Of a DNA stretch of 39,852 nt, positions 3,001-33,463 are shown one piece after another. The notes beneath the pieces are model-generated. The model was not told the DNA's origin and did no database searches. It worked only from the letters and a program-made list of their open reading frames with translations. Within the stretch, counting starts at the first letter, position 1. The number at the start of each line of letters is the position of its first letter. A program made the translations under genes and the position numbers. The stretch lies in the IMG/VR virus record IMGVR_UViG_3300004369_000045, positions 1 to 39,852 of that record, one strand, 5' to 3'. The stretch is from a virus.

Positions 3001-6000
3001 GTAGATCATCATCAGCATTTGGCGCTAGAATTCCCATGGTCCTAAACAGGTTTGTGCCACCTCTACCTCGTAAGATTCCAAATAATCCACCACCAGCAAT
3101 TGTCGCACCTGCCGCAAAGTTAACACCAGGTATCAAGCCGATTCCAACTGATAGTCCACCCATAAGTATGTTTTTAGTAGTATTCGCTCGTCCATCTGCA
3201 GAGACTAGCTCGTTTCCGGAAGTTAATGTTCCGATTGCTGTTTTTGCAGACACAGATTCATTCTGAGCTTCTACTATTAATCTATTCCAAGAACGATCTG
3301 TTCCTCGCTCTAGATAAGCCTGACCTTTTAGCTTCTTTTCATCTTCTTCAACCAACGAAGAGGCAGTTAGCCATCCGTCATCTATGTCTCCACCAAGGAA
3401 CTGCGCAAAACCTGTCCCATTGCCTGGATAGATATTTCTCTTAAATATCTCAAGATCTACTTCTGCACAGAAATTTGACATTAACTGACCCATACTAGTC
3501 ATTATTCTGCCATCGCCAAAGAAAGTACTTACAGGATTTCTTGTGAATACGTTAGTTGCAAGTTTAAAGGTTGCTGCATTTGCAGCACCTCCTACGTCTC
3601 CCTCTCCTAAATTAGAATAAACACTGGCAACAACATTTCTAATTCCATCTGCTCTGGCCTGCTCACTAGCGCTCAGAGGCTCATACAATGTTGACCCAAA
3701 GTGCCTGATTCCAAATCGGTTTTCAGAGAAAACAGTTCCATTAGTAGCACGAGCAAAAGCTTCCCTAAATCTTGATGCGCCCATTGACAGTAATCTAACC
3801 ATCAAATCTCTTGGCTCAGATAAATACATTCCGGTATCTATTCCACCATCTATTTTTCCAGTGTCGCCTTTTTTATTTGTTGAATTAACTATGGCGCCGA
3901 GCTCTATCGCATCTGACTGTGCAGTAACAGTAACTATTTCTCCCTGTTCAACATTTGTTATCACACCATTAAATATTGTTTGAAGAGAGTTAGGGTTTGA
4001 TCCGTATCCACACCTTAGGTGAACACGAACTCCTGGCTTTAATCTTATATTATTTATATCAACTACATAATCATTCCTCATGCCAGAAACAATATTCTTA
4101 GCTATATTTAAAGTTCTGTCTACAATTGACTCAATTCCTTGACTAAAGTCAATCGGCTGATCATCCATTCCTTCCCTTCTGCTGTTAAATATTTCAGTAG
4201 AAGGCCTAGTTGTTAGCTTAGAATACATATTGGAAACTCTAAATATTAATGTATCACCTAATAAATCTTCAGAAGAAACAACTGAGAAATCAACTATAGA
4301 TTGAAGTCCATAGAAATTATCGAATAGTTTAACTCCTGCAAAAAAACCACCCTCATCTATTAGCCACAGCATGTACGTTGGAAATGCTCTGATCATTCTT
4401 CCTGATATATCTCGATATTGAACATCGTTCATCATTTTTTGAATGTGGCCACCAAAAGATCCATCATACGCTTTTTGATACTGATCCAACGACTGCACTC
4501 CGTCAACACCCGTCAGAGCGTTTGTGCAGCCACGATCAGGCGTTTGCGTGTCTTCAACTTGATTCTCAACAAGTGTCTTATCACCATTTGAATCTATTTT
4601 GACGTTTGATCCATCTACAGTAAGATAAAACCTTCCATTGTCTTTATTGATATAACCAAAATGTGTTCCTAGAGCTGACTGCATCATCGCAGGAATTTCA
4701 TTTGTTGTCTGCTCCGGATTAGTTGCAGGAATCATGTACATTACTTTATGAAACTCTACCTCATCTGGATTAAAGCTAACTTCATCTTCATCACTTTGGT
4801 GAGCATTGGCCAAAGTCTGCTTAATTAGATTTAATGTTTCTGCGCTCTTATATGAAACATTTCCCACTGAGTACGGTGCAGAGTTTATTTCGTGAAATAC
4901 TTGAGAATCCTCAGTAGATTGAGATGCTATAAAAATGTAGTCAGTTAAAAGTCCTTGTTTTTTAGATATATCAAATTCAGAACTTTCTGTCTGAATTATT
5001 TCTTGAAATAAACTAATAAAGTTATGAACACTAATTCCTGTACCATTAACATAATCTATCATTTCCTGAATGATTACACTATTATTAACGGCTCTTTGAG
5101 CGGCGGCAAATGGTTCACTTCCAACATCTCTATATGAATATTGTCTAAGAAAGTCTATTATTCTATTTTTTATAGCATTCTTTCTAATGTCTATTGCTCT
5201 GGCATCGCCTACCTTAGCCCAGTCGTCAGAATAATCAAATTTAAAATCTTTAGTTAGGTCAGGTTGATATATGAAGTTATTGATAACATCTTTATCAAAC
5301 ATTTCAAAGCTTCTAAAGTAAAAATCTGGATCTAGGTTTCCTACGATTTCATTTTCGGAATCACGGACATCTAGTGGCATGTCGGGGTAGGCGTTAAACG
5401 CTCCCCAAAGCTGTTTGATGCGCAAGAACGGATTTCTTTTAGAGCCAAAATGTTCAATAAAATCTTTTTGCTGCTTAGATGACAGCTTCTCTCTCTGCTG
5501 CTGAAATATATCAAAGTCAACCAAACTAAGCTCAACATTGTAAACGTGAGGATAATTTGGAATTGTGTCAATCTTAAGATTTAACGGTATAACGTACTTG
5601 ATTCCTGACAATGCGGTTATGATATTTTTAATACCCAAAAAGCCTATTACGCCGGTGGAATGCTCTAATCTAGCTAACGAATTGATATGATCAAATATCG
5701 CTCTTATCTTGTATAATTCTTTTTCCCCAAAAACAGTAAGAGATATATTGATATAGGAATCTCTTCCGCCTATATATTGATAGGTTGGCTCATCTTGCAT
5801 CTGAACCTGCAATTTAGCTAAATTATTTCCTAACGTAACATTAACACCGTTTACAATTGCATAGCGAGGATCTAGGTCGACTTTAATCATCGGAACTTCC
5901 CACTCTTGGAAATGGTAGTCGCCCTCTTGTAGCCTCTTTGCCTCCATTATATTTTTAATGTAACCATCAGAAAAGAATCTTTCATATAGGGCGAGTAGGA

Positions 6001-8320
6001 ATGCATCTGTGGCTTGTTGCTCGATTTTTTCCCTGTTAGAGTTGACTATGTCTACTTCTACTCCAAGAATCTTTCTTCTCTCAATTTCCTCTTGGACAAA
6101 AGAGTCTATAATTGTTCCAGACTTATAGGTAGAATCCCATATGCTTCTCTTTATAAAGTTTAAATTAGTATTTCCATCTACATTTTCAAATATTGGATCA
6201 TTTAATACATAGGAGCCCTCTGCTGGAAACTGAGTAAAGTAGTCTGCATCAAATGGCATTTCGTCTGGACTGAGATACTTTTCTAACCAATCTTTTTCTT
6301 CTGCTGTAAGCTTTGTTATGTTACTTGAGATAAAAGACTGTATCTTATAGGCATATATTCCTGATCTATAGTCTGATTGGCTTACTCCAGCCGTGATAAT
6401 ATCGACTAACTGCACCGCCCTGCTTCTAGTTGATGGGGGAAACGCTCTCTCCAAGGAAACTGAACGCATTTGATATACATCTTTTACGAGTGGATTATTA
6501 TCAGTTATATTTATTCCAAATTTTGATAATAGATCATTCCACAGACCAGCGCTCTGTTGATTTAGTATTTTTTCTTGTTCACTTCTAAATGAACTTGTGT
6601 CTGGTAAGAATATTTTAGTTTGAGTTTCTGCTGGAGTATAAAACGTTAGGTTGCTGCCATCTCTCCATTGTGAAACTATGTTGGTGTATATCACGTCATT
6701 TTCGTAGGCGTTTAGAACTTCGACAACGTCGTCTGTCAAAGAAGAATCTACAAGAGCTGATTCATTTGCTATTGAAGCTCCGTATCGACTAGTTTCATAA
6801 ACCTGAGAACCACTTCTCAGTAAGCCTGTTTCTTCTCCATCATTAGTTTCCGCATTTCTATCGTCATTTCTTTTTATCAAAAAACTCTCATTGGCGTACC
6901 TATGCATGGCACCCGCTGCCTTGCCCATATACTGACGATACTTGCCCCAATGAATTGCTTGATTAAAATCTTTAATCATAGGAAGGAAAGGTTTATGATT
7001 ATAATTCATAAGTTCAAGATCAACAACAACAGAGAATGGGTAATTCGGAACTGTTGATATAGACATGTTTGATAGCGCAACTGCCGTAATTCCATGAACA
7101 GAGTTAAGGTACTGATTCTTTACGGGAAGTATTGGCGAATACTTAAAGGCGGCAATTAAGCCTCTTAGGGACGAGAGAAACTTATCTATTTTTTCTTCTG
7201 AATCACCAGAGTTTTTGAAATCTATTTTAAAACTTTCCTTAAGATTTATACTTGACACATCGTCAATGCTCATTCCCCAAATTTCTTCATAATTTGGAAA
7301 GAATAACCTAAGAGAAATTGTAGTTTCTTTATAACCAGCGTTGTACTTTGGGGTATTCCTCTGTCTAATTGCTCCGCCTGTTAAAGAACCTGTTTTAAAT
7401 GCAGAGTTAACAGTAACGGAAATTGGTGGAACATAAAAATTGGCTGCGCCAAGCCTTAGGTGAAATATGTCTGGTTTTTTGGGTGGTATATTTGCCCTAA
7501 ATGGAAAATCTTCAATAGCCTTACGAATTCTTTGAGAAGTGTTCCCGCTTTCTATTTTAAAAGCCATTGTAAATATGGGCTCACCATTTTCTGCTACGCC
7601 AAAAGCTTTTTCTAGTTCCTCAATTGCATCCTCAACTCTATTGAGAGTGTCTTCTCTTCCTCCACCTTTTCCTGCTCTGGAATAGTCGCCAGTAACAGCA
7701 AGGGCGTCAAACACAAATGTCAATAGTCCTGGCATATAGTGATTTATGATTGAAAATGATATGGGGTCCGCTTGTAAGTTATAGACCACTTGACTAAGAA
7801 GTGTTAACCACTCAACATCAGACGCTGGATCGACATGGAAATCTAAAGACTTCTGAGTCATATAAACATTTTGTAATCTTTTCTTTCCGAATTCAGCTAT
7901 CTCGTAGGCAAACGCTGCTATGTAGAGTAACCCTGTAGATTCAATTCTTTTATATAAATTTACCAATAAAAACGTATCGTCTAAAATAGACGTTAATGAT
8001 CCACCTTGAGATACAAAAACCCTTGTTGTAGCTTCTATCCTCTTTGCAAAATTTTCTGCGTCAGACCTTAAGTCACCTAGTGGATCTTCGGTTTCTAGGC
8101 TTTGATCTATATTAGGAACAATGTCAGGTCTAGTTAAAGAAAAAAATCTTTTTATAGCGGACTCAGAATTGTTGCTTACGCCATCAAAAATTTCAATACC
8201 GCCAATAGGCCCTACTTCAAGTAACCTAACAAATGCTGCCATATTAGCATTGATGTCTAGTGGGTCGCCAGAATTTATATTCTGTTCCTGCTCATTTTCA
8301 GACTGTTCTACGTTTGACAT
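1..8320 (-). CDS. Giant baseplate hub / tail protein, 3' end outside window (at least 2773 aa)
   Basis: An uninterrupted frame runs from an ATG at 8320 off the left edge, so the C-terminus is missing. The start has AAGG six bases upstream, overlapping the previous stop codon. Two related domains sit near residues 282-440 and 805-930; each has a beta-rich stretch ending in [TS]-[IV]-PNYP followed by alternating hydrophobics. Residues about 1293-1475 look like a gpD/gp27-type hub: an AFPTY...FIDE-like strand with DNFYG, then LKPGVRVHLRCGYG and a TAQSDAIEL strand. A Gly-rich hydrophobic stretch lies near 1710-1758, just before RPFEDRSTIFYGKPHWLY. Near 2233-2277, GRAVVCAP...W...IVSPDAAWYLG resembles RlpA/expansin-like folds that act on peptidoglycan. 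The hub role is well supported by motif and position; the wall-degrading role is tentative. Confidence 0.78.
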   Translation of the reverse strand, partial: MSNVEQSENEQEQNINSGDPLDINANMAAFVRLLEVGPIGGIEIFDGVSNNSESAIKRFFSLTRPDIVPNIDQSLETEDPLGDLRSDAENFAKRIEATTRVFVSQGGSLTSILDDTFLLVNLYKRIESTGLLYIAAFAYEIAEFGKKRLQNVYMTQKSLDFHVDPASDVEWLTLLSQVVYNLQADPISFSIINHYMPGLLTFVFDALAVTGDYSRAGKGGGREDTLNRVEDAIEELEKAFGVAENGEPIFTMAFKIESGNTSQRIRKAIEDFPFRANIPPKKPDIFHLRLGAANFYVPPISVTVNSAFKTGSLTGGAIRQRNTPKYNAGYKETTISLRLFFPNYEEIWGMSIDDVSSINLKESFKIDFKNSGDSEEKIDKFLSSLRGLIAAFKYSPILPVKNQYLNSVHGITAVALSNMSISTVPNYPFSVVVDLELMNYNHKPFLPMIKDFNQAIHWGKYRQYMGKAAGAMHRYANESFLIKRNDDRNAETNDGEETGLLRSGSQVYETSRYGASIANESALVDSSLTDDVVEVLNAYENDVIYTNIVSQWRDGSNLTFYTPAETQTKIFLPDTSSFRSEQEKILNQQSAGLWNDLLSKFGINITDNNPLVKDVYQMRSVSLERAFPPSTRSRAVQLVDIITAGVSQSDYRSGIYAYKIQSFISSNITKLTAEEKDWLEKYLSPDEMPFDADYFTQFPAEGSYVLNDPIFENVDGNTNLNFIKRSIWDSTYKSGTIIDSFVQEEIERRKILGVEVDIVNSNREKIEQQATDAFLLALYERFFSDGYIKNIMEAKRLQEGDYHFQEWEVPMIKVDLDPRYAIVNGVNVTLGNNLAKLQVQMQDEPTYQYIGGRDSYINISLTVFGEKELYKIRAIFDHINSLARLEHSTGVIGFLGIKNIITALSGIKYVIPLNLKIDTIPNYPHVYNVELSLVDFDIFQQQREKLSSKQQKDFIEHFGSKRNPFLRIKQLWGAFNAYPDMPLDVRDSENEIVGNLDPDFYFRSFEMFDKDVINNFIYQPDLTKDFKFDYSDDWAKVGDARAIDIRKNAIKNRIIDFLRQYSYRDVGSEPFAAAQRAVNNSVIIQEMIDYVNGTGISVHNFISLFQEIIQTESSEFDISKKQGLLTDYIFIASQSTEDSQVFHEINSAPYSVGNVSYKSAETLNLIKQTLANAHQSDEDEVSFNPDEVEFHKVMYMIPATNPEQTTNEIPAMMQSALGTHFGYINKDNGRFYLTVDGSNVKIDSNGDKTLVENQVEDTQTPDRGCTNALTGVDGVQSLDQYQKAYDGSFGGHIQKMMNDVQYRDISGRMIRAFPTYMLWLIDEGGFFAGVKLFDNFYGLQSIVDFSVVSSEDLLGDTLIFRVSNMYSKLTTRPSTEIFNSRREGMDDQPIDFSQGIESIVDRTLNIAKNIVSGMRNDYVVDINNIRLKPGVRVHLRCGYGSNPNSLQTIFNGVITNVEQGEIVTVTAQSDAIELGAIVNSTNKKGDTGKIDGGIDTGMYLSEPRDLMVRLLSMGASRFREAFARATNGTVFSENRFGIRHFGSTLYEPLSASEQARADGIRNVVASVYSNLGEGDVGGAANAATFKLATNVFTRNPVSTFFGDGRIMTSMGQLMSNFCAEVDLEIFKRNIYPGNGTGFAQFLGGDIDDGWLTASSLVEEDEKKLKGQAYLERGTDRSWNRLIVEAQNESVSAKTAIGTLTSGNELVSADGRANTTKNILMGGLSVGIGLIPGVNFAAGATIAGGGLFGILRGRGGTNLFRTMGILAPNADDDLPGFDEVSFRAQTYMRTVWDLFQICARLLPNYIVAIRPFEDRSTIFYGKPHWLYTSGVVPVTTGFPSVDKASELNLPGYPKYRSPQEDIQNIMDNINRSNNTLADYEAFKRSNELSDTMASLASDQVNSQGIYKPTSFLREKLINFNSPMANVFQETPEGSKDPVIVSKLPTIFGPARVGFHLPVGDPSATIAPMGDARSHAQLDNLPPRFKYPFYTINESVILDSTSYAVRDGGVFKEASSHFKDIGKSGRAFLKNEGGVPMDAEEFEGFIKEAQAEDRRAVGGATFVANLFTVLQYESKFILNNELTLVPSSGVLELDRPLGFSTFLDNLVDVDGLSFIGGATTSYVRMPLPSTANNRPSLFLDQDALLKYSIGSNEAERNSEDYSFEYELSTQISYEEWGSPQDLPASQQTAEEAEQFYIAMRWPYNPGNSQVQVGDEALQKFKEKYGFVDLYGTAQDYKKRKVLVFSPFTGRAVVCAPAYFMWGDEDEDTTAIVSPDAAWYLGNYISPDLDFKISADDTDSSFMDSLPSFVNTLAELQANVIDWTIIKPAKVVQWVNDRFGVASKIWNRLGITLFGNEDELNYEDESGIALVPRSVNCMYAFVPDDVPVGVISSAAAPVKKFFAKDGPSIDSNYIIGFGNYALNSDGTTSALLARKTTSQDFVTERNPDGDGLDQQLAGTIFGEWVAENAEITYSRFEFGGNILATPEGRDKPFIGYFQTLLDVPNFNNVDVSLGLGQSFDDVINNNLLSRSYLYQILDEELATTGDTDSAKGRAGFLSVYDPLDPVGVEARSYYDENFDPNVSVIAGNGRNLQEANDIWDQFRFGYHTYDSVKAVFSRVYGMDPDSVELFPEEFAKILGSSNENTFQNFQDVNLPISGLSNTENTAVDELALLLGADYFNAPSNPQLGGQGVPVANSATRREAVEFIRKNYIDLITPDSSSEAGIIQYFNSVISRSLSNIRENFFESPSVNNLLSFALENKENPEEAIKLNEKIKT

Positions 8321-8328
8321 ATAATACC

Positions 8329-8775
8329 TTAGGTAAACATCATGTTGTTTTTAATAATTTTAGACAATCTATCACTAGAAGAGTCTCTCATTGTAGATGA
8401 GCTATAATTGTCTATTATACTACTTTTAGTTTCATTTGTAAAAGAATTAAAATCAAAACTCCCACCTATTTTTGTTTTAATATTTTTTGAATATCTAGCC
8501 CTCTGATGCTTTTTGGCTGCGTAACCTGTATCATTCATCAATATGTGGGCAGGAGATGCATTCTCTAAACCTTCAAAGGATCCTCTGACTTTATCAGATT
8601 GTCCTGCAGCTTGAATTTTTTGGCGGGATTCAGAAACCACGTTTCTTGAAGGACTTTTACTAGAAGCTACTTTTGCTGCATACTTGTTGGCCGTCAAACT
8701 TCTATGTGAGGTATCTTTTGACTGTTTTGCAGCGTTAGCTAGAGATTTATTTTGATCTTTAACACTTAGTATCAT
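8329..8775 (-). CDS. Unknown basic, Ser/Lys-rich 148-aa virion-region protein
   Basis: I do not recognise this protein. It starts at an ATG with AAGG seven bases upstream and lies between the 1669-aa giant protein and the hub gene, with gaps under 10 bases on both sides, so it is in the same transcription unit. It is rich in Ser, Lys, Asn and Ala, has no Cys and no obvious membrane segment, and looks largely disordered or helical in its first two thirds. The position suggests a small baseplate or tail-tip accessory, or an assembly factor for one of the giant proteins. That is inference from context only. Confidence 0.6.
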   Translation of the reverse strand: MILSVKDQNKSLANAAKQSKDTSHRSLTANKYAAKVASSKSPSRNVVSESRQKIQAAGQSDKVRGSFEGLENASPAHILMNDTGYAAKKHQRARYSKNIKTKIGGSFDFNSFTNETKSSIIDNYSSSTMRDSSSDRLSKIIKNNMMFT

Positions 8776-21700: not shown

Positions 21701-22687
21701 TCATATTATTGGTGGCGAACTGCCTAAAATAGCCCCCCAGTTAGTTGCGTAATTAATACTTTGATCATTGGCAACTGACGACAACGGGCCTGCAGAAACA
21801 TTCTCTGCTGAAATTGTCTTTATAAATGATGTGTCAACCTCGGTAAAGTAGTGATCTCTGGCCATAAATTGATATGTTTCGGCAACTGGTTGTCCGCCAG
21901 GAGAGTATATCGTTGACATGTTAATAATATTAACCTCTTGTAAAACTATTTTCATTGGAGAATTTAGTGCAGTAGATTTAACTACTCTCTGATTAACGTC
22001 GGACAACATAGTTCTACTAATATTGTCTACTGCTCCGTTAAACTCTACATCATTAGCGTCTGATTGAAAAAGATTCTTTGGGGACAGAGCCACCTCTTCA
22101 AGTCCATAAACTATAACGAAGTTAAATGGCGGATGTGCGCTAAATATATTTCTACCAGAATCTACAACATTTTTTGCAAACGGATCCTCAGTTATTCGAT
22201 CTAGCTGACTTCGCTCCCAGTACTTATTTATTAAAGCTTCATCTTCTTCTGTTTCCAATCTGCTTCTTAAATTAGAAATTACTTTATTTGATGCGCTCTT
22301 ATCTGTTGCAGCCGAAGTTCTTATGGAAGCAGCTTTTTCTAAAAGGTCTGTCATTCTTCTTGGGTATCTAGTATATATGGAGACTTCTCCGGTAATAATT
22401 CTTGTTCCATACATTATCGCATCGTAATTATATGACCAGAATCCATAAAGAGGCTGCTTCTCTTGGCGAACATTGAATGCAAATGTTGCGATATCCAATT
22501 CATCATCTGGCTGAAAAAGCCCATCAATAAATATTCTAATATCCTCGCCGCTGAAATAGTAGTCATAATAATTACTAAATCTTTTATCGCCTGAAGTTCC
22601 ACCACTCCAGACTAGGTCCAATCTTTCATTAAGCGGGTTAAACTCCCTAGTAGAGTTGGCAGAAAATGCATCAGGTTCAGCGGGCAT
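21701..22687 (-). CDS. Third tube-like tail protein (328 aa)
   Basis: The ATG at 22687 overlaps the end of the 266-aa gene by 11 bases; GGAGG lies eight bases upstream. The layout follows the two upstream tube-like proteins: SGEDIRIFIDG, a strand with REKQPLYG in divergent form, then GTRIITGEVSIY, a HPPFNFVIVYG strand, and a C-terminal EVNIINMS...ETYQFMARD. It differs by a charged helical insert near residues 130-180 and a longer C-terminal tail. Such divergent tube paralogs are known to cap tubes or connect them to baseplates, and its place last in the trio, next to chaperones and giant tail genes, fits a tube-to-baseplate adaptor. The paralogy is seen by eye; the exact role is inferred. Confidence 0.6.
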   Translation of the reverse strand: MPAEPDAFSANSTREFNPLNERLDLVWSGGTSGDKRFSNYYDYYFSGEDIRIFIDGLFQPDDELDIATFAFNVRQEKQPLYGFWSYNYDAIMYGTRIITGEVSIYTRYPRRMTDLLEKAASIRTSAATDKSASNKVISNLRSRLETEEDEALINKYWERSQLDRITEDPFAKNVVDSGRNIFSAHPPFNFVIVYGLEEVALSPKNLFQSDANDVEFNGAVDNISRTMLSDVNQRVVKSTALNSPMKIVLQEVNIINMSTIYSPGGQPVAETYQFMARDHYFTEVDTSFIKTISAENVSAGPLSSVANDQSINYATNWGAILGSSPPII

Positions 22688-23477
22688 TTGAAATTCCTCC
22701 TCCCCCCGATGGGCTTATTATCTCTTCGGCAACTGTTGGTCTATTGTATCTGGTATTATAGTATTCTGCGTCATTTAGTGCTGCCAAATCATCAATAATA
22801 AGATCTCCAAATATATTTGTACTAATCTGATCTCTTTCCTTCATTTCATCTGGGTAGGATGCGTCTCTTGAAACAGTAGCGTCGTTCGGCATTCTTACTA
22901 AGGGTTGTATGCCTCTAGCCATATAAGTATAGGTTTGCTCTGTTATTAAGTCATCAATAGAAAGAGTTTGACCTTCGTCAACTATCGTTACTCCATATAT
23001 TTTCATTTTGGAGCCAAGTCCATACTCGTTGAAAAATGTTATGACTATATCAAAGGGCGGAAGCATGTCAGCCAGTGGAGCAAAGTATCCCGTTCTTCTT
23101 GCTAAATACTGCTTAAATTCCTTTATTCTATAGAATGCGTATTCATTGAATACGGTAAAAATAAGGCTTCCAGCTATAGTTCTTCCACCCTTTATGAAGC
23201 CACGCACATTTACGTGTCCCAGGGTTCTAACCGGAGAGTTTTCTCTGTGTATAGAATAAGAGATAGTTTGCAGCTCTCCTAGAGTGATAATATCACCTTG
23301 AGATTCGACATTTCCATCTGGTCCAATAACTGGCAAAACTATTGTTGCAACAGCGTCAGCGCCGGAGTAAGACATTGTGGAAAGATATTTTTCCCAATCA
23401 TAGAGATCATTTCCACTTTTTTCAATAGGCTGCTCTTCTTTAGTTTTAGTAAATGTAAAAGTTTTTATTTCAGCCAT
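22677..23477 (-). CDS. Second tube-like tail protein (266 aa)
   Basis: A TTG four codons upstream (23489) extends the frame, but it overlaps the GGAG that serves the ATG at 23477 with six bases of spacing, so the ATG is chosen. The protein matches the 220-aa tube protein along most of its length: YLST.SYSGADAVAT, REN(S)PV(R)T(L)G, GGRTIAGSLIFTVF, LPPFDIVITF.NEYG, and a closing TYTYMARG strand. It carries an extra loop after the first strand and a longer C-terminus. It is probably a tube ring variant. The start sits directly behind a strong terminator hairpin that follows the first tube gene, so its expression should be lower than that of its neighbour. Confidence 0.65.
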   Translation of the reverse strand: MAEIKTFTFTKTKEEQPIEKSGNDLYDWEKYLSTMSYSGADAVATIVLPVIGPDGNVESQGDIITLGELQTISYSIHRENSPVRTLGHVNVRGFIKGGRTIAGSLIFTVFNEYAFYRIKEFKQYLARRTGYFAPLADMLPPFDIVITFFNEYGLGSKMKIYGVTIVDEGQTLSIDDLITEQTYTYMARGIQPLVRMPNDATVSRDASYPDEMKERDQISTNIFGDLIIDDLAALNDAEYYNTRYNRPTVAEEIISPSGGGGISNAR

Positions 23478-23479
23478 TA

Positions 23480-23530
23480 AAATCTCCAAAAATTAAAATA
23501 GGTGCATGGCAGCTATCCATGCACCTATTT
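23480..23530 (-). terminator. Strong intrinsic terminator after the first tube gene
   Basis: A perfect 14-bp inverted repeat (23496-23509 with 23517-23530, 7-base loop) begins about 20 bases after the tube stop codon. On the minus strand the stem ends in TATTT and is followed by TAATTTTT, a T-rich tract. The same tract leads straight into the GGAG ribosome site of the next gene. The hairpin should reduce transcription from the abundant sheath-tube pair into the less abundant downstream genes, while some readthrough must occur unless the next promoter is strong. Confidence 0.8.
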
Positions 23531-23549
23531 CTTGACACCTTAGTAATTA

Positions 23550-24212
23550 TCAGGGTCTAATAATTGTTGTATTTAACCCTTCGGGTGGAACACCCACTAG
23601 ATTAGTTGGATCAACAAGAGTGTCATTTCTAATTGTGTACATGGGCCCGAGCTCACGAGCAACATAGGTCATTGTTTCTTCAATAACAATATCGTCCATT
23701 GAAGCGCCTGATCCTTCATTGAGAAGTTCTACACCGAATATAGACCTAACGGCTGACTGTCCGTACTCATTAGCAAATGTAATGGTAATGTCAAATGGGG
23801 GAATCTGGTCAGCGTAGTAAGGAACCTTTCTAACGACACCAGTTCTTTGTTCATTAACGTCTGCAATACCTCTTCTGTGACCATTGTCGCCAGGAAGGGT
23901 ATTGTGACTTCTTGTGTAGAAGTCCATTGGTCTATTCTGTGTGTAATTTTGTTCCAACATCTTATAAAGAGCTGGACGATCAAACACTGTGAATATTAGT
24001 GATCCGGCGATTCCGCGCTTACCTCTTGAGAAGGATCGTGGGTTGGGTGACCCCATTGTATAGATAGGGGCCTTTTCTCTGGTAACAGAGAAAGTAATTC
24101 CGGATAGCGCACCTATTTCTATTCCACCAAATGTAGCTACAATGTCTGCACCGGAGAAAGTTGTATAGGTATTAAGATACTTGTTTACTGATGTATATTC
24201 TTCTGTGGCCAT
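23550..24212 (-). CDS. Main tail tube protein (220 aa)
   Basis: The start is an ATG with AGGAGG ten bases upstream, 28 bases after the sheath stop. Sheath followed by tube is the standard order in contractile-tailed phages. The protein is short, beta-rich and compact: SGADIVATFGG, ITFSVTREKAPIYTMG, GKRGIAGSLIFTVF, IPPFDITITFANEYG and MTYVARELGP. These segments recur in the next two genes, which identifies a tube family of at least three members here. Among the three it is the shortest, lies directly after the main sheath and is followed by a terminator, all expected of the abundant polymerising subunit. No frame damage is visible. Confidence 0.8.
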   Translation of the reverse strand: MATEEYTSVNKYLNTYTTFSGADIVATFGGIEIGALSGITFSVTREKAPIYTMGSPNPRSFSRGKRGIAGSLIFTVFDRPALYKMLEQNYTQNRPMDFYTRSHNTLPGDNGHRRGIADVNEQRTGVVRKVPYYADQIPPFDITITFANEYGQSAVRSIFGVELLNEGSGASMDDIVIEETMTYVARELGPMYTIRNDTLVDPTNLVGVPPEGLNTTIIRP

Positions 24213-24240
24213 TTTATTTTACCCTCCTAATCGGTAATTA

Positions 24241-25479
24241 TTATAGATTAATGGCTACTCTGACTTCGATCTCCTTGAGCTCGAAGGCAGGTGTTAAAAT
24301 GAGGTCTACAATCGCCTTGTTTTCATTTGGTATATACGAGACTGTAAAGTCACTACCAAGCAAGGCACCTACAATTTGCATACCTCTCAGACCAGAAGTA
24401 ATTGCTGTCTCCATCGCATTTCTTGTTTGAATGTTTGATGGTTCGCCAACAAATCTCTGGCAAGCTTGTCTAACAACAGATGTGGCATCATCGATGATTC
24501 TCTTTGTTGAGAGACGTGTGTAATCAGATGTGGACCAACCAAATGTTAAGCCTTCTCCAAATACAGGAATCTTGTTAAAGTTAATTATTACAGAGTTAAC
24601 ACCCTTGCCTCCAAGTGTAGCCTGCATCGTTCTTGATGGGGCGTAACGCAAAGCCTCTACGTTGTACAGGGCCTTGTTTACAAGAGAGCTGTAGGACGGA
24701 ATGATACTCAGGGCACCAGCTATGTGTGCGGCACCGTTTGTGTAACCAAATACGGTATCTCCAGAACGGTAATTAACTGGCTTAATTTCTGCAGCAACTA
24801 CAGTAACATATGGTCCAACTTCTTTTAGAAGTGAGCTAGAATCTCTATCTGGAAGATTTGTCAAACCTAAATGAGTAGAAACCTCACCAGGAGTCATTGA
24901 CTCGGAAGCGCTATCATATGGCTTGACGCCCATGATGGCTATGCAGGGATTAACATTTTCTGCTATATCCTTGACTTTTTCTGCAACCTTATATGCCCAG
25001 TTGCTAGTAACGGTTGAACTATTGTCAGCGTAAAAGCCATAGAGTCCACCTGAACTTGGTGTAGCAGCCCACTCATTGGGATGGCCACCTCTACCCCAAG
25101 GTATGATCATGTCTGGGATAGCAGCTTCTGCTGCAGCAAAGGCTGCATCAAATACTGATCCACCGTAAGAGCTACTTGTAACTGTAGCAGTTGTGTGGTT
25201 CCACGCTGTATCACTTGGAAGTGGCACTATGTATATTCTTCCTGCGCCAGCTAAAATTAGCTCCAAATATGCCCTGTGGGCGTCTGAGCCATCGCCAAAA
25301 GCAGTGATAACGTCTGCCTCGTTAGTTACTCTAACTACATCTAGATCAGCTACGGAACCAGTTCCGCTAGCTGTACTGCGACGTGCTATTGCAACAATTC
25401 TGGGACCAACAGGTGTATCCTGACGTGATACACTGTAGAAGCGATCTCTAATTAATGTTTTTACTCCAGGTATAGCCAT
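24241..25479 (-). CDS. Main tail sheath protein (412 aa)
   Basis: It forms the contractile outer layer of the tail. It starts MAIPGVKTLIRDRFYSV at an ATG with GGAGG twelve bases upstream. Family features seen are an N-terminal VGPRIVAIARRS strand, RVTNEADVITAFG followed by a helix and a GAGRIYIVPLP strand, a variable middle, and a C-terminal sheath domain: TRLSTKRIIDDATSVVRQAC, a helical part, then a VDLILTPAFELKEIEVRV strand. The length is typical of a compact sheath without large surface inserts. It is preceded by a 111-base gap that may hold a promoter and followed by the tube gene. It is related to the 530-aa sheath-like protein encoded upstream. Confidence 0.9.
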   Translation of the reverse strand: MAIPGVKTLIRDRFYSVSRQDTPVGPRIVAIARRSTASGTGSVADLDVVRVTNEADVITAFGDGSDAHRAYLELILAGAGRIYIVPLPSDTAWNHTTATVTSSSYGGSVFDAAFAAAEAAIPDMIIPWGRGGHPNEWAATPSSGGLYGFYADNSSTVTSNWAYKVAEKVKDIAENVNPCIAIMGVKPYDSASESMTPGEVSTHLGLTNLPDRDSSSLLKEVGPYVTVVAAEIKPVNYRSGDTVFGYTNGAAHIAGALSIIPSYSSLVNKALYNVEALRYAPSRTMQATLGGKGVNSVIINFNKIPVFGEGLTFGWSTSDYTRLSTKRIIDDATSVVRQACQRFVGEPSNIQTRNAMETAITSGLRGMQIVGALLGSDFTVSYIPNENKAIVDLILTPAFELKEIEVRVAINL

Positions 25480-25521
25480 ATTGGTTTTAATCCTCCAAAT
25501 AATAAACTTTTTGAATCTTCA

Positions 25522-25551
25522 CTTATAGTAATGGCTAACTTATAAAAACAA
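25522..25551 (-). promoter_or_regulatory. Weak promoter candidate before the sheath gene
   Basis: In the 111-base gap upstream of the sheath gene the minus strand has TTGTTT, an 18-base spacer and TATAAG. The hexamers are imperfect and the region is AT-rich, so this could be chance. The gap is one of the largest in the window and precedes two genes expected to be highly expressed, which is the main reason for listing it. I see no hairpin in this gap. Confidence 0.25.
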
Positions 25552-25590
25552 CTACAAACTAAATCTGCTGGACTTTTTATATATACCATT

Positions 25591-26454
25591 TCATGTGTTT
25601 GGAGTAGCTGTTTGGAATAGGTCTATAATATTTCCTGTAGTTCCAGACAAATTTGGTGTAGCCAGTTCGTTTCTTAATAACTCTCTTTCATACGCCATCC
25701 ATGTTCTCGCATCTACGGCGATCTTCTCAATTCTTCCATTTGCTATGGCAAACGTTTTCTCCGTAGTCAACATATATGTCACTGTTCTTTTGTGTATATC
25801 TTTACCATCTCTGTTTATTTCAGAGTCTGACAGCCTCCTAGAATAGACCAGCTCGGATGCACCAGCTGCTTTAAATATTGAAGTATACTCCAGCATGAAG
25901 TCCTCAAATGCTTCGATAACCTGATCGCACAGAACCGCTGCATCTAGATCGTCTCTTGTTGTTGTAGTATCTGCACCCTGGAAGGTTCCGACTTTTGACA
26001 TTACTGTAAAGCCAATTATATTTTGAAATCTTTGACCATAGATAGTTACCGTATTAGACAGTACGTTCTGTCTCATTCGTGGCTTTGGTTCTGTGGTATG
26101 AGCCTTTCTTAATTCTAGGTGATAGCCTATAACAGCTGGAAATTCGTCTAGTCCTAAAGAGGTAGACGAAGGCGATGTGCTCAAATCTCCAACTGATGTA
26201 TCAATTGTTAAATTATCATTATACGTTGTGCTGCTCTCTCTGTTTATACTCAATGGGAATATCGGTATATTAGGATAGCTTTCTTCCCATAGTTTTTTAA
26301 CAAGAGCTATAAATTCAATATATGTTAAGTTGCCAGAATATATTTCCTCAACACCATCTTGATCTAGCCGCCTATAACCGGGCGACTGAAGAGCTGGGTA
26401 ACCGTATCTTAAGTTCTCGGAAAAACTAGGAAAGTCTCTATTGATATATGCCAT
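25591..26454 (-). CDS. Probable tail terminator / tail completion protein (287 aa)
   Basis: The start is an ATG with AGGAG six bases upstream, one base after the stop of the sheath-like gene. The N-terminal half is polar and partly low in complexity (many Ser and Thr near residues 70-100). The C-terminal half has strands typical of small connector proteins (NTVTIYGQRFQNIIGFTV), then a DQVIEAFEDFMLEY helix and an RTVTYMLTTEKTF strand. Gene order (adaptor, stopper, sheath-like, this gene, sheath, tube) places it where tail terminator proteins, which cap the head-proximal end of the tube, usually lie. The call rests on position and strand pattern; no invariant residue was recognised. Confidence 0.5.
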   Translation of the reverse strand: MAYINRDFPSFSENLRYGYPALQSPGYRRLDQDGVEEIYSGNLTYIEFIALVKKLWEESYPNIPIFPLSINRESSTTYNDNLTIDTSVGDLSTSPSSTSLGLDEFPAVIGYHLELRKAHTTEPKPRMRQNVLSNTVTIYGQRFQNIIGFTVMSKVGTFQGADTTTTRDDLDAAVLCDQVIEAFEDFMLEYTSIFKAAGASELVYSRRLSDSEINRDGKDIHKRTVTYMLTTEKTFAIANGRIEKIAVDARTWMAYERELLRNELATPNLSGTTGNIIDLFQTATPNT

Positions 26455-26455
26455 A

Positions 26456-28048
26456 CTATGCTCCTGGTCCTGCGGCTAATGAGAAGTTTATCTTCTTAAT
26501 AGCGAAGAAAGATATCAACTCTATTTCAAATATCAGCACACCTCTATCTACACTAGAAAAATTAGCCTTAAATGAAAAGTCTAAGATGGCCTTATTTTTC
26601 TTTAGTGTTTGCAGATACATTTTAACTTCGTCAATAATACTATCATAAGATAAAATATCAAATTTCGATAAAGCTATTCCTTTTATTTCACTAACTACCG
26701 AAGCAACTAGTCTCATCTGGAAAAGCTTGCTAAATACAGAATCTTTATCAGCCATTGTATACTCATTGGTAACATATGTTTCAAAAGGAACTGCTCTTCT
26801 AGTTTTTCTGCCCCTATAAACGGTGTTGATGCCTATATTCTCTAATCTTTCATAATCAGCGTAAGTTAGGTCATTTCCAAAAATCGACAGTGCGCCTGGT
26901 ATCCTAGATCTTATTAAAGCTTTAGCTTCTCTATTTGAAGACATCATACCTGCGTAAGCGGCTGCCGCTGTAGAAGTGTAGCTTATTTTTAATTCTGGAT
27001 GCTGAAAAACAAGTTCCCCATAAATGGGTATAATATACCTACCCTTATCTGAGGCGATTTGACCATTTGAATATAAGGTAAGCTTATTTGCAATAACAGA
27101 ATTAGACTCAAGGATAGATATATCCGCTGCCTTAATTCCATCAGATCTACTGCCTATAACACCCATTTGTACGTAACCAGTTGTATTATGAAAGAGGGAA
27201 CAATAGTTTGCCAATTGAGTAATGAAATCAACTCCACCAGTATTCATAATACTAGTTTCAAGTGGAACTACTACGTCAACAAAATCCAGATCTATTATTT
27301 CAGAGTAAGTTTGCTCCAACCTATCGTGGTATCTTTGATAAAATGTTTGAGATCCAGGGGTTGCATCATTTATGGAAAAGATATTTGTAGAAATATTTTT
27401 TTGAGAATAAGTCTCAACATACTCTGACATTGGAGCAACGGCGCATATCATAATGTCCCTTGCGCCGCACGAGTATGCGTCTAACACACCTTTTAGGAGG
27501 GGGCTATTTGCATCGGCTCCAATTAAATCAATCGCGTGTTGTATCGAATTTATTCTAACTGGATAATTTAACTTCATTCCGTCTGCGTGGCCCAAAAGAA
27601 GTATCGTGCTAGTATTTTTTCTATTTAACTGCTGATACGTTGGATTATAATTTATAACTGAAGATTTTGGCGAAGCTATCGTAACTGGAGAAACTGAAGA
27701 TTGAGACTGCTTAACTTGAAAACTTACTGTAGCATTTATATTTTGGACACTACTGCTTGTCGTGGCCAAAATAGTATAAGTATACTCGTACAAGTTTTCA
27801 GGAACTTTATAGGTGAATGTATATTCACCAGTTCCAGACCTAAGTATAGAATTATTATTAATGTTTCCATTATTGTTTAGTAGAGAGTATGGACCATCTA
27901 TTACCGGGCCAGAACCAGTGCTCCCCCTTAGAACATAAACTATTACATCTACAGGAGTTGCTAAATTAGCTGGATCATAGATAGATCCATCGTAATCAGT
28001 AAAAACAAATTTAAACTGAGCTGTCTGACCTTTAGTTAAAGCTAGCAT
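26456..28048 (-). CDS. Second tail-sheath-like protein with N-terminal Ig-like domain (530 aa)
   Basis: A TTG at 28075 gives a nine-residue longer frame, but the ATG at 28048, behind a purine-rich GAGAGAAG, is the better start. Residues 1-115 form a beta-rich Ig-like domain (TAQFKFVFTDYDGSIYD, VDVIVYVL, GEYTFTYKVPE, ATVSFQV). The rest follows the sheath pattern: a TSTILLLGHADG strand, RINSIQHAIDLIGAD, a helix and an ARDIMICAVAP strand, a middle domain with FVDVVVPLE, and a C-terminal domain with FSKLFQMRLVASVVSEI and a VLIFEIELISFFAIKKI strand. The gene lies between the stopper and the tail terminator genes, so it may form a special ring at the neck or sheath end instead of the bulk sheath. 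The sheath family is well supported; the specialised role is inferred. Confidence 0.75.
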   Translation of the reverse strand: MLALTKGQTAQFKFVFTDYDGSIYDPANLATPVDVIVYVLRGSTGSGPVIDGPYSLLNNNGNINNNSILRSGTGEYTFTYKVPENLYEYTYTILATTSSSVQNINATVSFQVKQSQSSVSPVTIASPKSSVINYNPTYQQLNRKNTSTILLLGHADGMKLNYPVRINSIQHAIDLIGADANSPLLKGVLDAYSCGARDIMICAVAPMSEYVETYSQKNISTNIFSINDATPGSQTFYQRYHDRLEQTYSEIIDLDFVDVVVPLETSIMNTGGVDFITQLANYCSLFHNTTGYVQMGVIGSRSDGIKAADISILESNSVIANKLTLYSNGQIASDKGRYIIPIYGELVFQHPELKISYTSTAAAAYAGMMSSNREAKALIRSRIPGALSIFGNDLTYADYERLENIGINTVYRGRKTRRAVPFETYVTNEYTMADKDSVFSKLFQMRLVASVVSEIKGIALSKFDILSYDSIIDEVKMYLQTLKKNKAILDFSFKANFSSVDRGVLIFEIELISFFAIKKINFSLAAGPGA

Positions 28049-28049
28049 C

Positions 28050-28421
28050 TTACTTCTCTCTAGTTGCTCCGACAATCCAATAGTCTACTTTACCCATTCT
28101 ACCTCTCGCGGCTGTAACCGTATCTATTACAAATAAAGTATAATTTTTAGTTACTTTTAAAGAAAAATTCTCATAAATCCTATCTCCTTCTTTAGGATTT
28201 ATATGATCCTCAAAATAGTACACTGCATCATACTTTGTAAAGAGTCCGTCTTGATTTTCTGTTGTTGATAGCGCATTGGTTATGCCGGACTGTCCTACTT
28301 GACGAGTTGTAACTCTCTCAAATTTACTAGAGTGGTTTCCATTTGAAAGTATCCTTTGAAGATATACATCATGACCCCATTCTCTTAATACTTTTTTAAA
28401 AGATCTTTTAATATCAATCAT
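28050..28421 (-). CDS. Probable head-tail stopper / connector protein (123 aa)
   Basis: The ATG lies inside the last codons of the adaptor gene (8-base overlap), so translation is coupled. The small protein has the usual stopper layout: a charged N-terminus, a GLFTKYDAVYYFEDHINPKEGDRIYE segment split by a turn, then a FVIDTVTAARGRMGKVDYWIVGAT strand pair. The part KEGDRIYE before the final strands is like the 'GD' beta turn found in small beta-barrel connector proteins that plug the portal channel after packaging. Position after the adaptor and before tail genes agrees. The sequence evidence is moderate. Confidence 0.6.
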   Translation of the reverse strand: MIDIKRSFKKVLREWGHDVYLQRILSNGNHSSKFERVTTRQVGQSGITNALSTTENQDGLFTKYDAVYYFEDHINPKEGDRIYENFSLKVTKNYTLFVIDTVTAARGRMGKVDYWIVGATREK

Positions 28422-29316
28422 ACTTCTTTAGACCCCTTCTTGGCATTGGGTCGTCCTTGGGTGGAACTTTCCTTCCTGGACCATATAGTTCTCTATCAGA
28501 AAGGTACACAATCTTACCAGTTTCAACTTCTGGTATTTTACCAGAACTAACAGGAATGCCTCCACTGGGTAGATTCTTCATCTGGAATCCCTGTGGCCCA
28601 ACCTTACCGGCCAGCATTTCTTTTCTCAGTGACGCCGCTATCTGGCACCAGGTTGTTGCGTTATCTCTGGTGACTTTATTCCTAGGAATTGATCTATTCA
28701 TTAAGGAGAAATCGCCCAATTTAACAGAGACTTCGTCATCTCCGCCAAAACCATATGTCCTACTTAATTCACACGCTGTTGAAGCCTTAATATATTCCAA
28801 TACAATAAAAGGTAAACCTGAGCCATCCTCGTCCTCAAGAAGACTATATATTTCCTTTACTTCAAGAGAATAAGTATAAATTATCTCTCCTATTTCTAGC
28901 AAAGAGGCGTCAGGGAAATATGGAAGTAGACTTTCTGGATCCACATATAATGGAGCTATATCTGGAGCAAAAGCTATGGTTTCATCTGTTCTTAGTGTAA
29001 CTGTTGGCTTAAACTCTGCCTCTAATGATGAGACATATAGCTTTTGTTGAACTACAACCGTATTTCCAGATTGTAATGTTCCGGTAAATTTAACACTATA
29101 AGTATCCGCTTGAGTAGGAATATAATCATAATAAAAAACTGATGCTGTAATCGATGTGGCGCTATCAGAGATTAGTTCGATATTATCCGAATCATATATT
29201 CTTACATTAACAGTTACTGGATATATTTCTACCTGATTTCCAGTAGCTGGGTCAACATCGACAAATTTAACCCTAATTCTAACAGTATCATTTACTAAAA
29301 CTCTTTCTGTAGACAT
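28414..29316 (-). CDS. Probable head-tail adaptor with N-terminal Ig-like domain (300 aa)
   Basis: The ATG has AGGGG six bases upstream. Residues 1-100 look like an Ig-like domain (TVRIRVKFVDVD, VTVNVRIYD, DTYSVKFTG, VVVQQKLYV), similar in strand order to the N-terminus of the 530-aa sheath-like protein. Residues about 120-210 form the helical part: YVDPESLLPYFPDA, then a EIIYTYSLEVKEIYSLL helix and a FIVLEYIKASTACELSRTYG helix, the pattern of gp6-type adaptor proteins that sit under the portal. The C-terminal 60 residues are Gly/Pro-rich and probably extended. A stopper-like gene overlaps its end. The adaptor call is based on helical pattern and order; the Ig-like extension could be displayed on the neck surface. 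Confidence 0.58.
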   Translation of the reverse strand: MSTERVLVNDTVRIRVKFVDVDPATGNQVEIYPVTVNVRIYDSDNIELISDSATSITASVFYYDYIPTQADTYSVKFTGTLQSGNTVVVQQKLYVSSLEAEFKPTVTLRTDETIAFAPDIAPLYVDPESLLPYFPDASLLEIGEIIYTYSLEVKEIYSLLEDEDGSGLPFIVLEYIKASTACELSRTYGFGGDDEVSVKLGDFSLMNRSIPRNKVTRDNATTWCQIAASLRKEMLAGKVGPQGFQMKNLPSGGIPVSSGKIPEVETGKIVYLSDRELYGPGRKVPPKDDPMPRRGLKKYD

Positions 29317-29723: not shown

Positions 29724-31835
29724 TTAGTATGTTCCACCATCTATTGTTATATTGTCGATAGTTCCACCTGTTATATTTACGTTATTAGCATTCTGTACGG
29801 CAATTGTTCCGAGTCCCAAAGTAGTTCTAGCTGCTGATGCATCTGCGTCATCGACAAGTGATCTACCAAATGATGTAAAGTTAGCTAGTGCGGCGGTACC
29901 ACTTCCGGTAAAGTATGGAAGTTTATCAGCTGCAGAAGTTAGTCCAGCTATTGCTGCAAGCTCTGCATCGTATGCTTGAACATCTGTATTAATAACCAAA
30001 CCTAGGTTTGATCTAGCGTCTGCTGCGTTTGTCGCGCCAGTTCCACCGTAGCTTAAGCCAATAGTTGTACCCTGCCATGTTCCAGAGGATATAGTTCCAA
30101 CTGTTGTGATTGTGTTTTGCCCAACATAGGTTGCTGCTATATCAATAGCGTCAGATGATACGGTAATTCTGTCTGTAGTTCCACCGACAGCTAATACTCC
30201 ACTGGCAAATGTTAAACCATCTCCAGCAATAGAACTGTTAACCTGCAGCTCATCCGATGTAATGAGTAATCCACTATTAGTTGCTAAATTAATATCAAAA
30301 ATATTACCGTTAAGTACTAGTCCACTGCCTGCTAGATATGTTCCGGCACCGGAAAACTGACTCCAGTTTACTGCATCGGAGCCAACATTATTTACTTCAT
30401 CCGTGGAAACCCAGCCTGTGTTTGCGTAGTTAGTCCCATTATCTACAAAGACGAAATCACCGCCTGCAATTTCTGTACCGCTGTCAAAATCCCCTGCTCT
30501 TGTTAAGACTGTGCCACCAGTTGCCCATGTGTAAATACCATTATGTGCTGCTGTTGTCTCATTTTTAACTAAAATTCTATCTCCATTCTGGAGATTATAA
30601 TTATCCAGGACAGTAAGTGCTGTACCCAAAGTAAGAGTAGCTCCAACACCGCTTGTTCCATTATCATAGCTGACTGAATCACCAGTAATATTTGCTAGAG
30701 TATCATTTGTAGCAGCTTTGACAGCTGCATGAACGTGTAGACCCTCTGCTACACTGTCAACATAAGCCTTAGTTGCAGCGTCTTGCGCATTTACTGGATC
30801 TGCAAGATTTTCTATTCTTGCACTATTAACAGAAATATGACCTGTTCCATTTGGATCTAAGGATATTCCACCATTTACATCAGTGGCAGATATTGTATTT
30901 CCATCAATACGAATATTGTCAATGTCAATTTGTTGCAGTCCTGCCAGTGAAAGACTAGTTGAACCCAAGGATGTAGTAGTTGTTCCTATTGTCAATGATG
31001 AATTGACTAATTGTGAATTTGAAACTCCACCGGACTTAATTGAAACTGCTCCAGATGTAACATCGAAACTACTTGAGCTAAACGACGCTACGCCCTTAGA
31101 AGATGTTGTGGCGTCATCGCCGCTAACCGTAACCGTTACATTGGTTGAGCTCTTTGCAACAGAGGTTGTTATTCCTGTTCCGCCAACTATCTGCAAATCA
31201 TCATCTGCCAAAGATACATCTTCTGTTGTAGCGCCGTCAGCATCGATAGTAAGGGTAGTGGAGATTGAAGCTGTTCCTGCTGCCGTCAATCTACCTTGAT
31301 CGTCAACAGTAAATGTTGGAATTTCAGTAGCCGAACCATAGCTTCCTGCTGTAACCGCAGTATCGTCTAGGTCAATTGTTAGAGTGTTCGTAGCAGAGGC
31401 TGTTGTAGAAATTCCTGTTCCACCAGCGATTGTAGCTGTCTGAGCATCAGTGATTTCTTGTGGAGTTCCGCCATCTCCAGCTAATGTAAAGGTATAGGTA
31501 GATGACAAAATGGCTCCATCAACATAAGCTGTTGTAGCTACTTTAGTACTATTATCTCCAGCGGTTTGCGTTAAGGCTGTAGCGCTCGAACCTAGTGCAA
31601 CTGTTCCAGAGAATGTCTTGTTGCCAGAAATTGTTTGAGTTGTAGACAAAGTTGTATACGAACCTGGTCCGGCAATAGCTTCTATTGTTGAAGCTGTTCC
31701 CCCAGCACCGCCTGTACCCTTTCCGTAATAAAGAGTATTGTCAACTTCATTATATGCTAATTCTGCATTTTCTAGGCTACTAGGAGCACCGGACGCACCG
31801 GATGCCCTTCTTTTAATTCTAATTGTATTAGCCAT
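29724..31835 (-). CDS. Long repetitive fibre-like structural protein (703 aa)
   Basis: The start is an ATG with GGAGG twelve bases upstream. The N-terminus (ANTIRIKRRASG...LENAELAYNE.DNTLYYG) is the typical opening of fibre and decoration proteins in many environmental tailed phages, including T4-like phages of aquatic bacteria. It is followed by Gly/Ser/Thr/Asp-rich repeats: KVATTAYVDGA, DDQGRLTAAGTASIS, VSLADDDLQIVGGTGI, AQDAATKAYVD, and a C-terminal GGTGATNAADARSNLGLV block that recurs as ARTTLGLG. Such repeats form trimeric beta fibres. Being next to head-completion genes and not among baseplate genes suggests a head, neck or whisker-type fibre. It could also be a receptor-binding fibre. 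No chaperone or protease domain is seen at the C-terminus. Confidence 0.72.
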   Translation of the reverse strand: MANTIRIKRRASGASGAPSSLENAELAYNEVDNTLYYGKGTGGAGGTASTIEAIAGPGSYTTLSTTQTISGNKTFSGTVALGSSATALTQTAGDNSTKVATTAYVDGAILSSTYTFTLAGDGGTPQEITDAQTATIAGGTGISTTASATNTLTIDLDDTAVTAGSYGSATEIPTFTVDDQGRLTAAGTASISTTLTIDADGATTEDVSLADDDLQIVGGTGITTSVAKSSTNVTVTVSGDDATTSSKGVASFSSSSFDVTSGAVSIKSGGVSNSQLVNSSLTIGTTTTSLGSTSLSLAGLQQIDIDNIRIDGNTISATDVNGGISLDPNGTGHISVNSARIENLADPVNAQDAATKAYVDSVAEGLHVHAAVKAATNDTLANITGDSVSYDNGTSGVGATLTLGTALTVLDNYNLQNGDRILVKNETTAAHNGIYTWATGGTVLTRAGDFDSGTEIAGGDFVFVDNGTNYANTGWVSTDEVNNVGSDAVNWSQFSGAGTYLAGSGLVLNGNIFDINLATNSGLLITSDELQVNSSIAGDGLTFASGVLAVGGTTDRITVSSDAIDIAATYVGQNTITTVGTISSGTWQGTTIGLSYGGTGATNAADARSNLGLVINTDVQAYDAELAAIAGLTSAADKLPYFTGSGTAALANFTSFGRSLVDDADASAARTTLGLGTIAVQNANNVNITGGTIDNITIDGGTY

Positions 31836-33419: not shown

Positions 33420-33458
33420 TAAAAGCACAGGGGGTAGTAGATTTCTCCACTACCCCCT
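33418..33458 (-). terminator. Intrinsic terminator after the major capsid gene
   Basis: A 10-bp perfect stem, nine of them GGGGGTAGT paired with ACTACCCCC (33429-33438 with 33449-33458), has a 10-base loop and is followed on the minus strand by TGTGCTTTTATT. The position, about 40 bases after the capsid stop, and the GC-rich stem make this a convincing terminator even though the T tract is short. It would limit readthrough from the abundant capsid transcript. Confidence 0.8.
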
Positions 33459-33463
33459 AGCTC

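Follow-up and report, generated by a model that had tools for sequence, protein, structure and literature searches.

A sheath paralogue, apparently of low copy number, encoded among the neck genes of contractile-tailed phages

The stretch analyzed here (the window) is a 39,852-base virus fragment from IMG/VR (IMGVR_UViG_3300004369_000045) that carries a head-to-tail gene block on its minus strand. Two of the minus-strand genes in this block, both located at these positions by a preliminary description of the same DNA and both indeed present there, encode tail sheath proteins: sheath A, of 412 amino acids (aa), at 24241..25479, and sheath B, of 530 aa, at 26456..28048. Computational comparison indicates that B is a paralogue of A with a sheath fold of its own, that it occupies a conserved position among putative neck genes, and that codon usage and transcription signals set the two genes apart. 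Codon usage, an indirect proxy, supports a low copy number for B, and we lean, with some reserve, toward the view that B is a minor component forming a ring at one end of the sheath, most likely the end near the head, where it would cap the sheath and anchor it at the neck.

Sheath A can be regarded, as had been proposed, as an ordinary sheath, and it is probably the bulk sheath protein of the tail. It matches PHROG tail-sheath families (the best being phrog_16991, at 6.9e-19) and, by profile, Afp3 (1e-4), and its AlphaFold2 (AF2) model retrieves the pyocin R2 sheath (3j9q) with Foldseek at 9.1e-14. The kinship of B is visible only with profiles; BLASTP yields no real alignment of A with B, and as a single sequence B matched no sheath family in family searches that included PHROG. 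Profiles of the two sheath families, built from 27 (B) and 29 relatives, align over 340 columns (hhalign 98%, E 1.9e-13), and 8 of the 27 B-family members match phrog_279, “tail sheath.” Among solved sheaths the AF2 model of B (predicted local distance difference test [pLDDT] 82) is closest to the neck-tail junction of phage 812 (Foldseek E 1.3e-13), and its top 32 PDB matches are all contractile tails or injection systems. Because of the profile alignment, the phrog_279 matches within the family, and the resemblance of the model to solved sheaths, we consider B a sheath paralogue; the claim that it repeats the sheath pattern thus holds, and the sheath fold on which that claim hinged is present in the predicted structure. 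Model and conservation together indicate that B retains the complete sheath core (residues 148–530; 26459..27607) and both terminal arms; in the model itself the core covers residues 148–526. The C-terminal strand had been described as differing enough to make co-polymerization with A less than obvious, which proves only partly correct: both models end in a predicted strand (B 519–526, A 404–411), which the profiles align, but in B it is followed by a conserved GPGA tail that is extra relative to A. The 530 residues are counted from an ATG; an alternative TTG start at 28075 would add 9 more.

The place of B in the gene block is conserved. Loci were collected with tail tube 1 as a neutral anchor, giving 80 viral-contig loci and one genome contig; with loci collected earlier and two cultured phages, the set comprises 62 that are distinct by their sheath A gene. 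All the loci share one gene order: a sheath at the B position, the tail terminator, a sheath at the A position, and then tubes 1 and 2. A stopper gene is recognized upstream of B in nearly all. The lineages that share this order include Bacillus phage vB_BauM_KLEB27-3 and Moorella phage MTATph1, whose records already annotate two tail sheaths each, and an outlying Acholeplasmataceae contig, L097. Acinetobacter phage ME3 keeps three tubes and has a single sheath; no recognizable relatives of the window-type stopper or terminator were found in it. In the window, B lies 1 bp from each neighbor, a putative head-tail stopper of 123 aa (28050..28421, minus strand) and a putative tail terminator of 287 aa, which separates the two sheath genes (25591..26454, minus strand). 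A sheath gene between stopper and terminator is unexpected in textbook phages, as the preliminary description had said; B does sit between two small neck-type genes, but in this lineage that position is the rule. A tree places the downstream sheaths together on one side, whatever their lineage (support 86/81), which suggests that the pair is old. The tree favors such an older split over a recent lineage-specific duplication, though an approximately unbiased (AU) test does not reject the latter (p 0.22).

Codon usage distinguishes the paralogues. We scored codon adaptation with the major capsid gene as reference, treating the score as an indirect proxy for abundance. Over 23 genomes, tube 1 (0.667) and sheath A (0.648) score high, whereas B (0.542), the stopper (0.542), tube 2 (0.551), the putative adaptor (0.556), the terminator (0.565), and tube 3 (0.566) score low; A exceeds B in 23 of the 23. 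For the window itself, the 95% bootstrap interval of the A-B difference, 0.017–0.111, lies above zero. MTATph1 (A 0.660, tube 1 0.659, B 0.598, the lowest of 15 genes) and KLEB27-3 (A 0.669, tube 1 0.681, B 0.553) present the same contrast, and in ME3 the single sheath (0.707) and tube 1 are high, with tubes 2 and 3 low. Pseudomonas phage PaBG provides a control, since both of its sheath proteins are Coomassie-visible bands in virion gels (PMC7412058). Its two sheath genes score alike, at 0.554 and 0.549; in this known case the proxy gives the expected result. By this measure A and tube 1 rank with abundant proteins and B with low-copy neck proteins; the joint abundance of the PaBG pair, equal in their scores, is not what we find for A and B, which differ.

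The signals surrounding the two genes also differ. Within the window's clade sheath A is preceded by a gap of 65–119 bp, whereas B abuts its neighbors. The gap contains a conserved element, GTTTTTATA-N9-TTACTATA, represented in the window by TTGTAGTTGTTTTTATAAGTTAGCCATTACTATAAG (25522..25557, minus strand); it is the only strong match in the window (position weight matrix score 46, against 3 for the next best), and most of 9 relatives have a single near-exact copy in their genome. We take this element as a promoter-like candidate. The idea that TTACTATA serves as a phage-wide promoter core is suggestive only, its intergenic enrichment being modest (10/24; rank 3 of 280 anagrams), and a scan for sigma-70 promoters gave no clear excess over shuffles. 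At the other end, tube 1 (23550..24212, minus strand) is followed by a hairpin like that of an intrinsic transcription terminator (23495..23531, minus strand; 15 pairs and a T-run). A strict terminator stands at this point in 32 of the 62 distinct loci, MTATph1 and KLEB27-3 included, where 0.1 would be expected; about half of the loci fail the strict criteria, many of them keeping the hairpin with a weaker T-run. Of the terminator-like stems on the minus strand in the scanned part of the window, the two longest lie after the capsid gene and after tube 1. Given the separate gap and element before A and the terminator after tube 1, A and tube 1 look like a boosted unit, with B belonging to an upstream neck operon. 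A strong terminator-like hairpin stands directly after the major capsid gene, at 33428–33459.

The N-terminal part of B appears to have a different history from its core. An extra beta domain had been noted there, and AF2 indeed predicts an eight-strand beta sandwich at residues 2–113 (domain taken as residues 1–113; 27710..28048). Between sandwich and core comes a poorly conserved stretch of linker and N-terminal arm (residues 114–147; 27608..27709), in which pLDDT drops below 50 at residues 116–137. Foldseek matches of B include immunoglobulin (Ig) modules (titin Z1Z2, LAR Ig1-2, and VISTA), and on the model we class the domain as an Ig-type beta sandwich. Conservation within B rises from the linker (0.37) and the Ig domain (0.49) to the core (0.62) and C-terminus (0.66). 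The downstream sheath is steady in size in the window's clade, at about 411–431 aa. The shortest upstream sheaths measure 360 aa (MTATph1, with no N-terminal domain) and 366 aa (L097), the Ig form has 530 aa, other forms reach about 700 aa, and the longest, in locus L046, has 1205 aa with its core starting at residue 820. Because the N-terminal region thus varies from nothing to some 820 extra residues, the Ig domain appears to be a late accretion, and the conservation values suit a lattice protein that has been retained while its outer appendage varied. The heading of the preliminary description placed the emphasis on the Ig domain, misleadingly in our view, as the positional equivalents of B in MTATph1, KLEB27-3, and the Acholeplasmataceae contig lack it. 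In the L046 protein (4104–7721 of that locus), the Ig domain, which precedes the core, is broken up by a repeated, jelly-roll-like sequence of about 650 residues; Pfam gave no match. A common origin for the Ig domain of B and the N-terminal domain of the adaptor was also considered, but the signal did not rise above controls.

We propose, with the same reserve, that these proteins work together as follows. Sheath A and tube 1 would polymerize as the bulk of the contractile tail, and B, which would have diverged from A long ago and be produced sparingly along with the neck proteins, would assemble into a single hexameric ring, or a few of them, at the end of the sheath nearest the head. The core of B would dock on the last A ring through the usual strand exchange, leaving its other face to contact the collar of terminator and stopper. 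So placed, B would cap sheath growth and fasten the sheath to the head, and contraction would then push the tube downward. The Ig domain, like the larger domains that replace it, would be a surface appendage of later date, probably forming a collar-like ring of adhesive or stabilizing knobs. A neck or sheath-end ring was among the possibilities raised in the earlier description, and it gains support from the complete core, the 1-bp packing with neck genes, and the low-copy codon usage. Ring stoichiometry, neck position, and anchoring role are what we infer from this evidence, and the neck end is favored because of the gene order and because B co-occurs with this particular stopper and terminator pair.

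Several observations weigh against this interpretation. Codon usage reports abundance only indirectly, and the 23 genomes are relatives of one another. Gene order is only a guide to a neck position for B, and the stopper and terminator are themselves named only from where they lie and from PHROG “virion structural” matches. The element upstream of A is absent in MTATph1, KLEB27-3, and L097, and in light of the AU result the sheath pair may be younger than the tree suggests. Finally, the sheath paralogues of extracellular contractile injection systems have been seen in baseplate maps. This last point bears on the possibility that B, like the specialized Afp and PVC paralogues, forms a ring at the baseplate end, where it would nucleate the sheath. 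A low copy number of B would fit that role equally well, PVC and AFP employ multiple sheath proteins, and three different sheath chains (C, D, and E) were matched in the AFP baseplate map 6rao. We nevertheless think a baseplate ring unlikely, since B is packed among the neck genes and not with tube 2, tube 3, or the baseplate genes, and since ME3, which is without B, is also without recognizable stopper and terminator relatives and yet has three tubes.

It is decidedly improbable, in our judgment, that A and B co-polymerize along the whole tail as a two-component sheath of the PaBG kind, with Ig knobs at intervals. PaBG does build virions with two sheath proteins, both visible as gel bands, and B has the full core and both terminal arms; but the PaBG genes are equal in codon adaptation, those considered here are unequal in every genome and in two further lineages, and B lies outside the block of A and tube 1. 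Knobs spaced along the sheath, an option offered in the preliminary description, are disfavored, as the expression signals point to less B than such decoration would take. We give very little credence to the notion that B serves as an alternative sheath, or as a factor in assembly, without being a stable part of the virion. Proteomics for any close relative was not found in the literature searched, which leaves room for such a role, but none of the 62 distinct loci lacks B, its position is constant, its sheath core is full, and its fast-changing outer domain is typical of surface-exposed virion proteins.

Elements of this arrangement have been seen before. That a phage may have two sheath genes is already known (PMC7412058), as are Ig-like domains on sheaths (PMC9230969). 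PaBG resembles the window in having two paralogous sheath proteins, gp76 and gp213, but its genes are far apart, both products are Coomassie-visible, and codon adaptation is equal (PMC7412058). The PaBG RefSeq record holds a third gene annotated “tail sheath,” gp093 (23241–24866 of locus L109), despite the two-sheath description. The extracellular systems (Afp2/Afp3/Afp4 and Pvc2/Pvc3/Pvc4) likewise have several sheath paralogues per particle, but three of them, no head or neck, and specialized chains in the baseplate map. The cap adaptor Alg16B of AlgoCIS, an Ig-like-domain protein, ends the sheath by handshake mimicry; it is not described as a sheath protein (PMC8894135), whereas the sheath core is complete in B. 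Type 2 sheath proteins (Evseev 2022; PMC9230969) combine a sheath core with an Ig-like sandwich; the Ig domain of the window is N-terminal to the handshake arm and is found on the minor paralogue only. The nearest parallels are KLEB27-3 (gp023/gp025) and MTATph1 (CDS17/CDS19), in each of which two annotated sheaths flank a terminator-like gene, tube paralogues follow, and the codon-usage contrast recurs, but the upstream sheath has no Ig domain and there is no promoter-like gap before A. No functional study of either pair was found in the literature searched, an open-access subset, and within it a conserved low-copy sheath paralogue in the neck block, in the same place across distant phages, is apparently undescribed. 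The BFVD models A7KUR1 and A7KUR3 look like the two sheaths of phage 0305phi8-36.

How the sheath ends and how the neck holds it are known for few contractile tails. In phage G, neck anchoring of the sheath has been proposed to be missing, and loss of the anchor alters how contraction works (PMC8570332). If our reading of B is correct, an end-specialized sheath paralogue would show how simply a cap can evolve, through duplication of the polymerizing subunit and alteration of one face. The cultured phages that share the gene layout, KLEB27-3 and MTATph1, make the end-ring idea testable, and codon adaptation to the capsid gene may, as these results suggest, separate bulk from minor paralogues in uncultured phages.

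Among the neck genes, all 15 members of the terminator family match the virion structural protein family phrog_20284, and 10 of 11 members of the stopper family match phrog_38102, also virion structural; a PDB sequence search to name the two gave no match. The putative adaptor (300 aa; 28414..29316, minus strand) has a beta-rich N-terminal stretch and no clear family match, and is named from position and sequence only.

Three tail-tube paralogues stand in a row on the minus strand at 21701–24212: tube 1, tube 2 (22677..23474), and tube 3 (21701..22687). Only tube 1, which is 53% identical to KLEB27-3 gp026 (“tail tube protein”), has high codon adaptation and may be the bulk tube; tubes 2 and 3 look low-copy, like baseplate-end tube initiators. 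ME3 shows this pattern too, as does KLEB27-3 in its codon usage. The label “major head protein,” which phrog_9206 attaches to tube 1 of the window and which the two tubes of MTATph1 carry as their annotation (L015, 13150–14578), is probably a propagated mislabel; in KLEB27-3 the orthologues are annotated as tail tube. MTATph1 has a gene for S-adenosylmethionine decarboxylase inserted between its tubes 1 and 2 (L015, 13680–14036).

Elsewhere in the window, a single reading frame, at least 2783 codons long, fills positions 1–8350 and matches an endolysin-family PHROG (1.4e-94). An alternative genetic code, considered because no complete open reading frame was listed in the first 8 kb, is ruled out, as this single frame runs off the window end. 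Between the capsid and neck genes, at 29724–31835, a 703-aa protein shows a mixture of head-decoration and tail-fiber PHROG matches, together with high codon adaptation.

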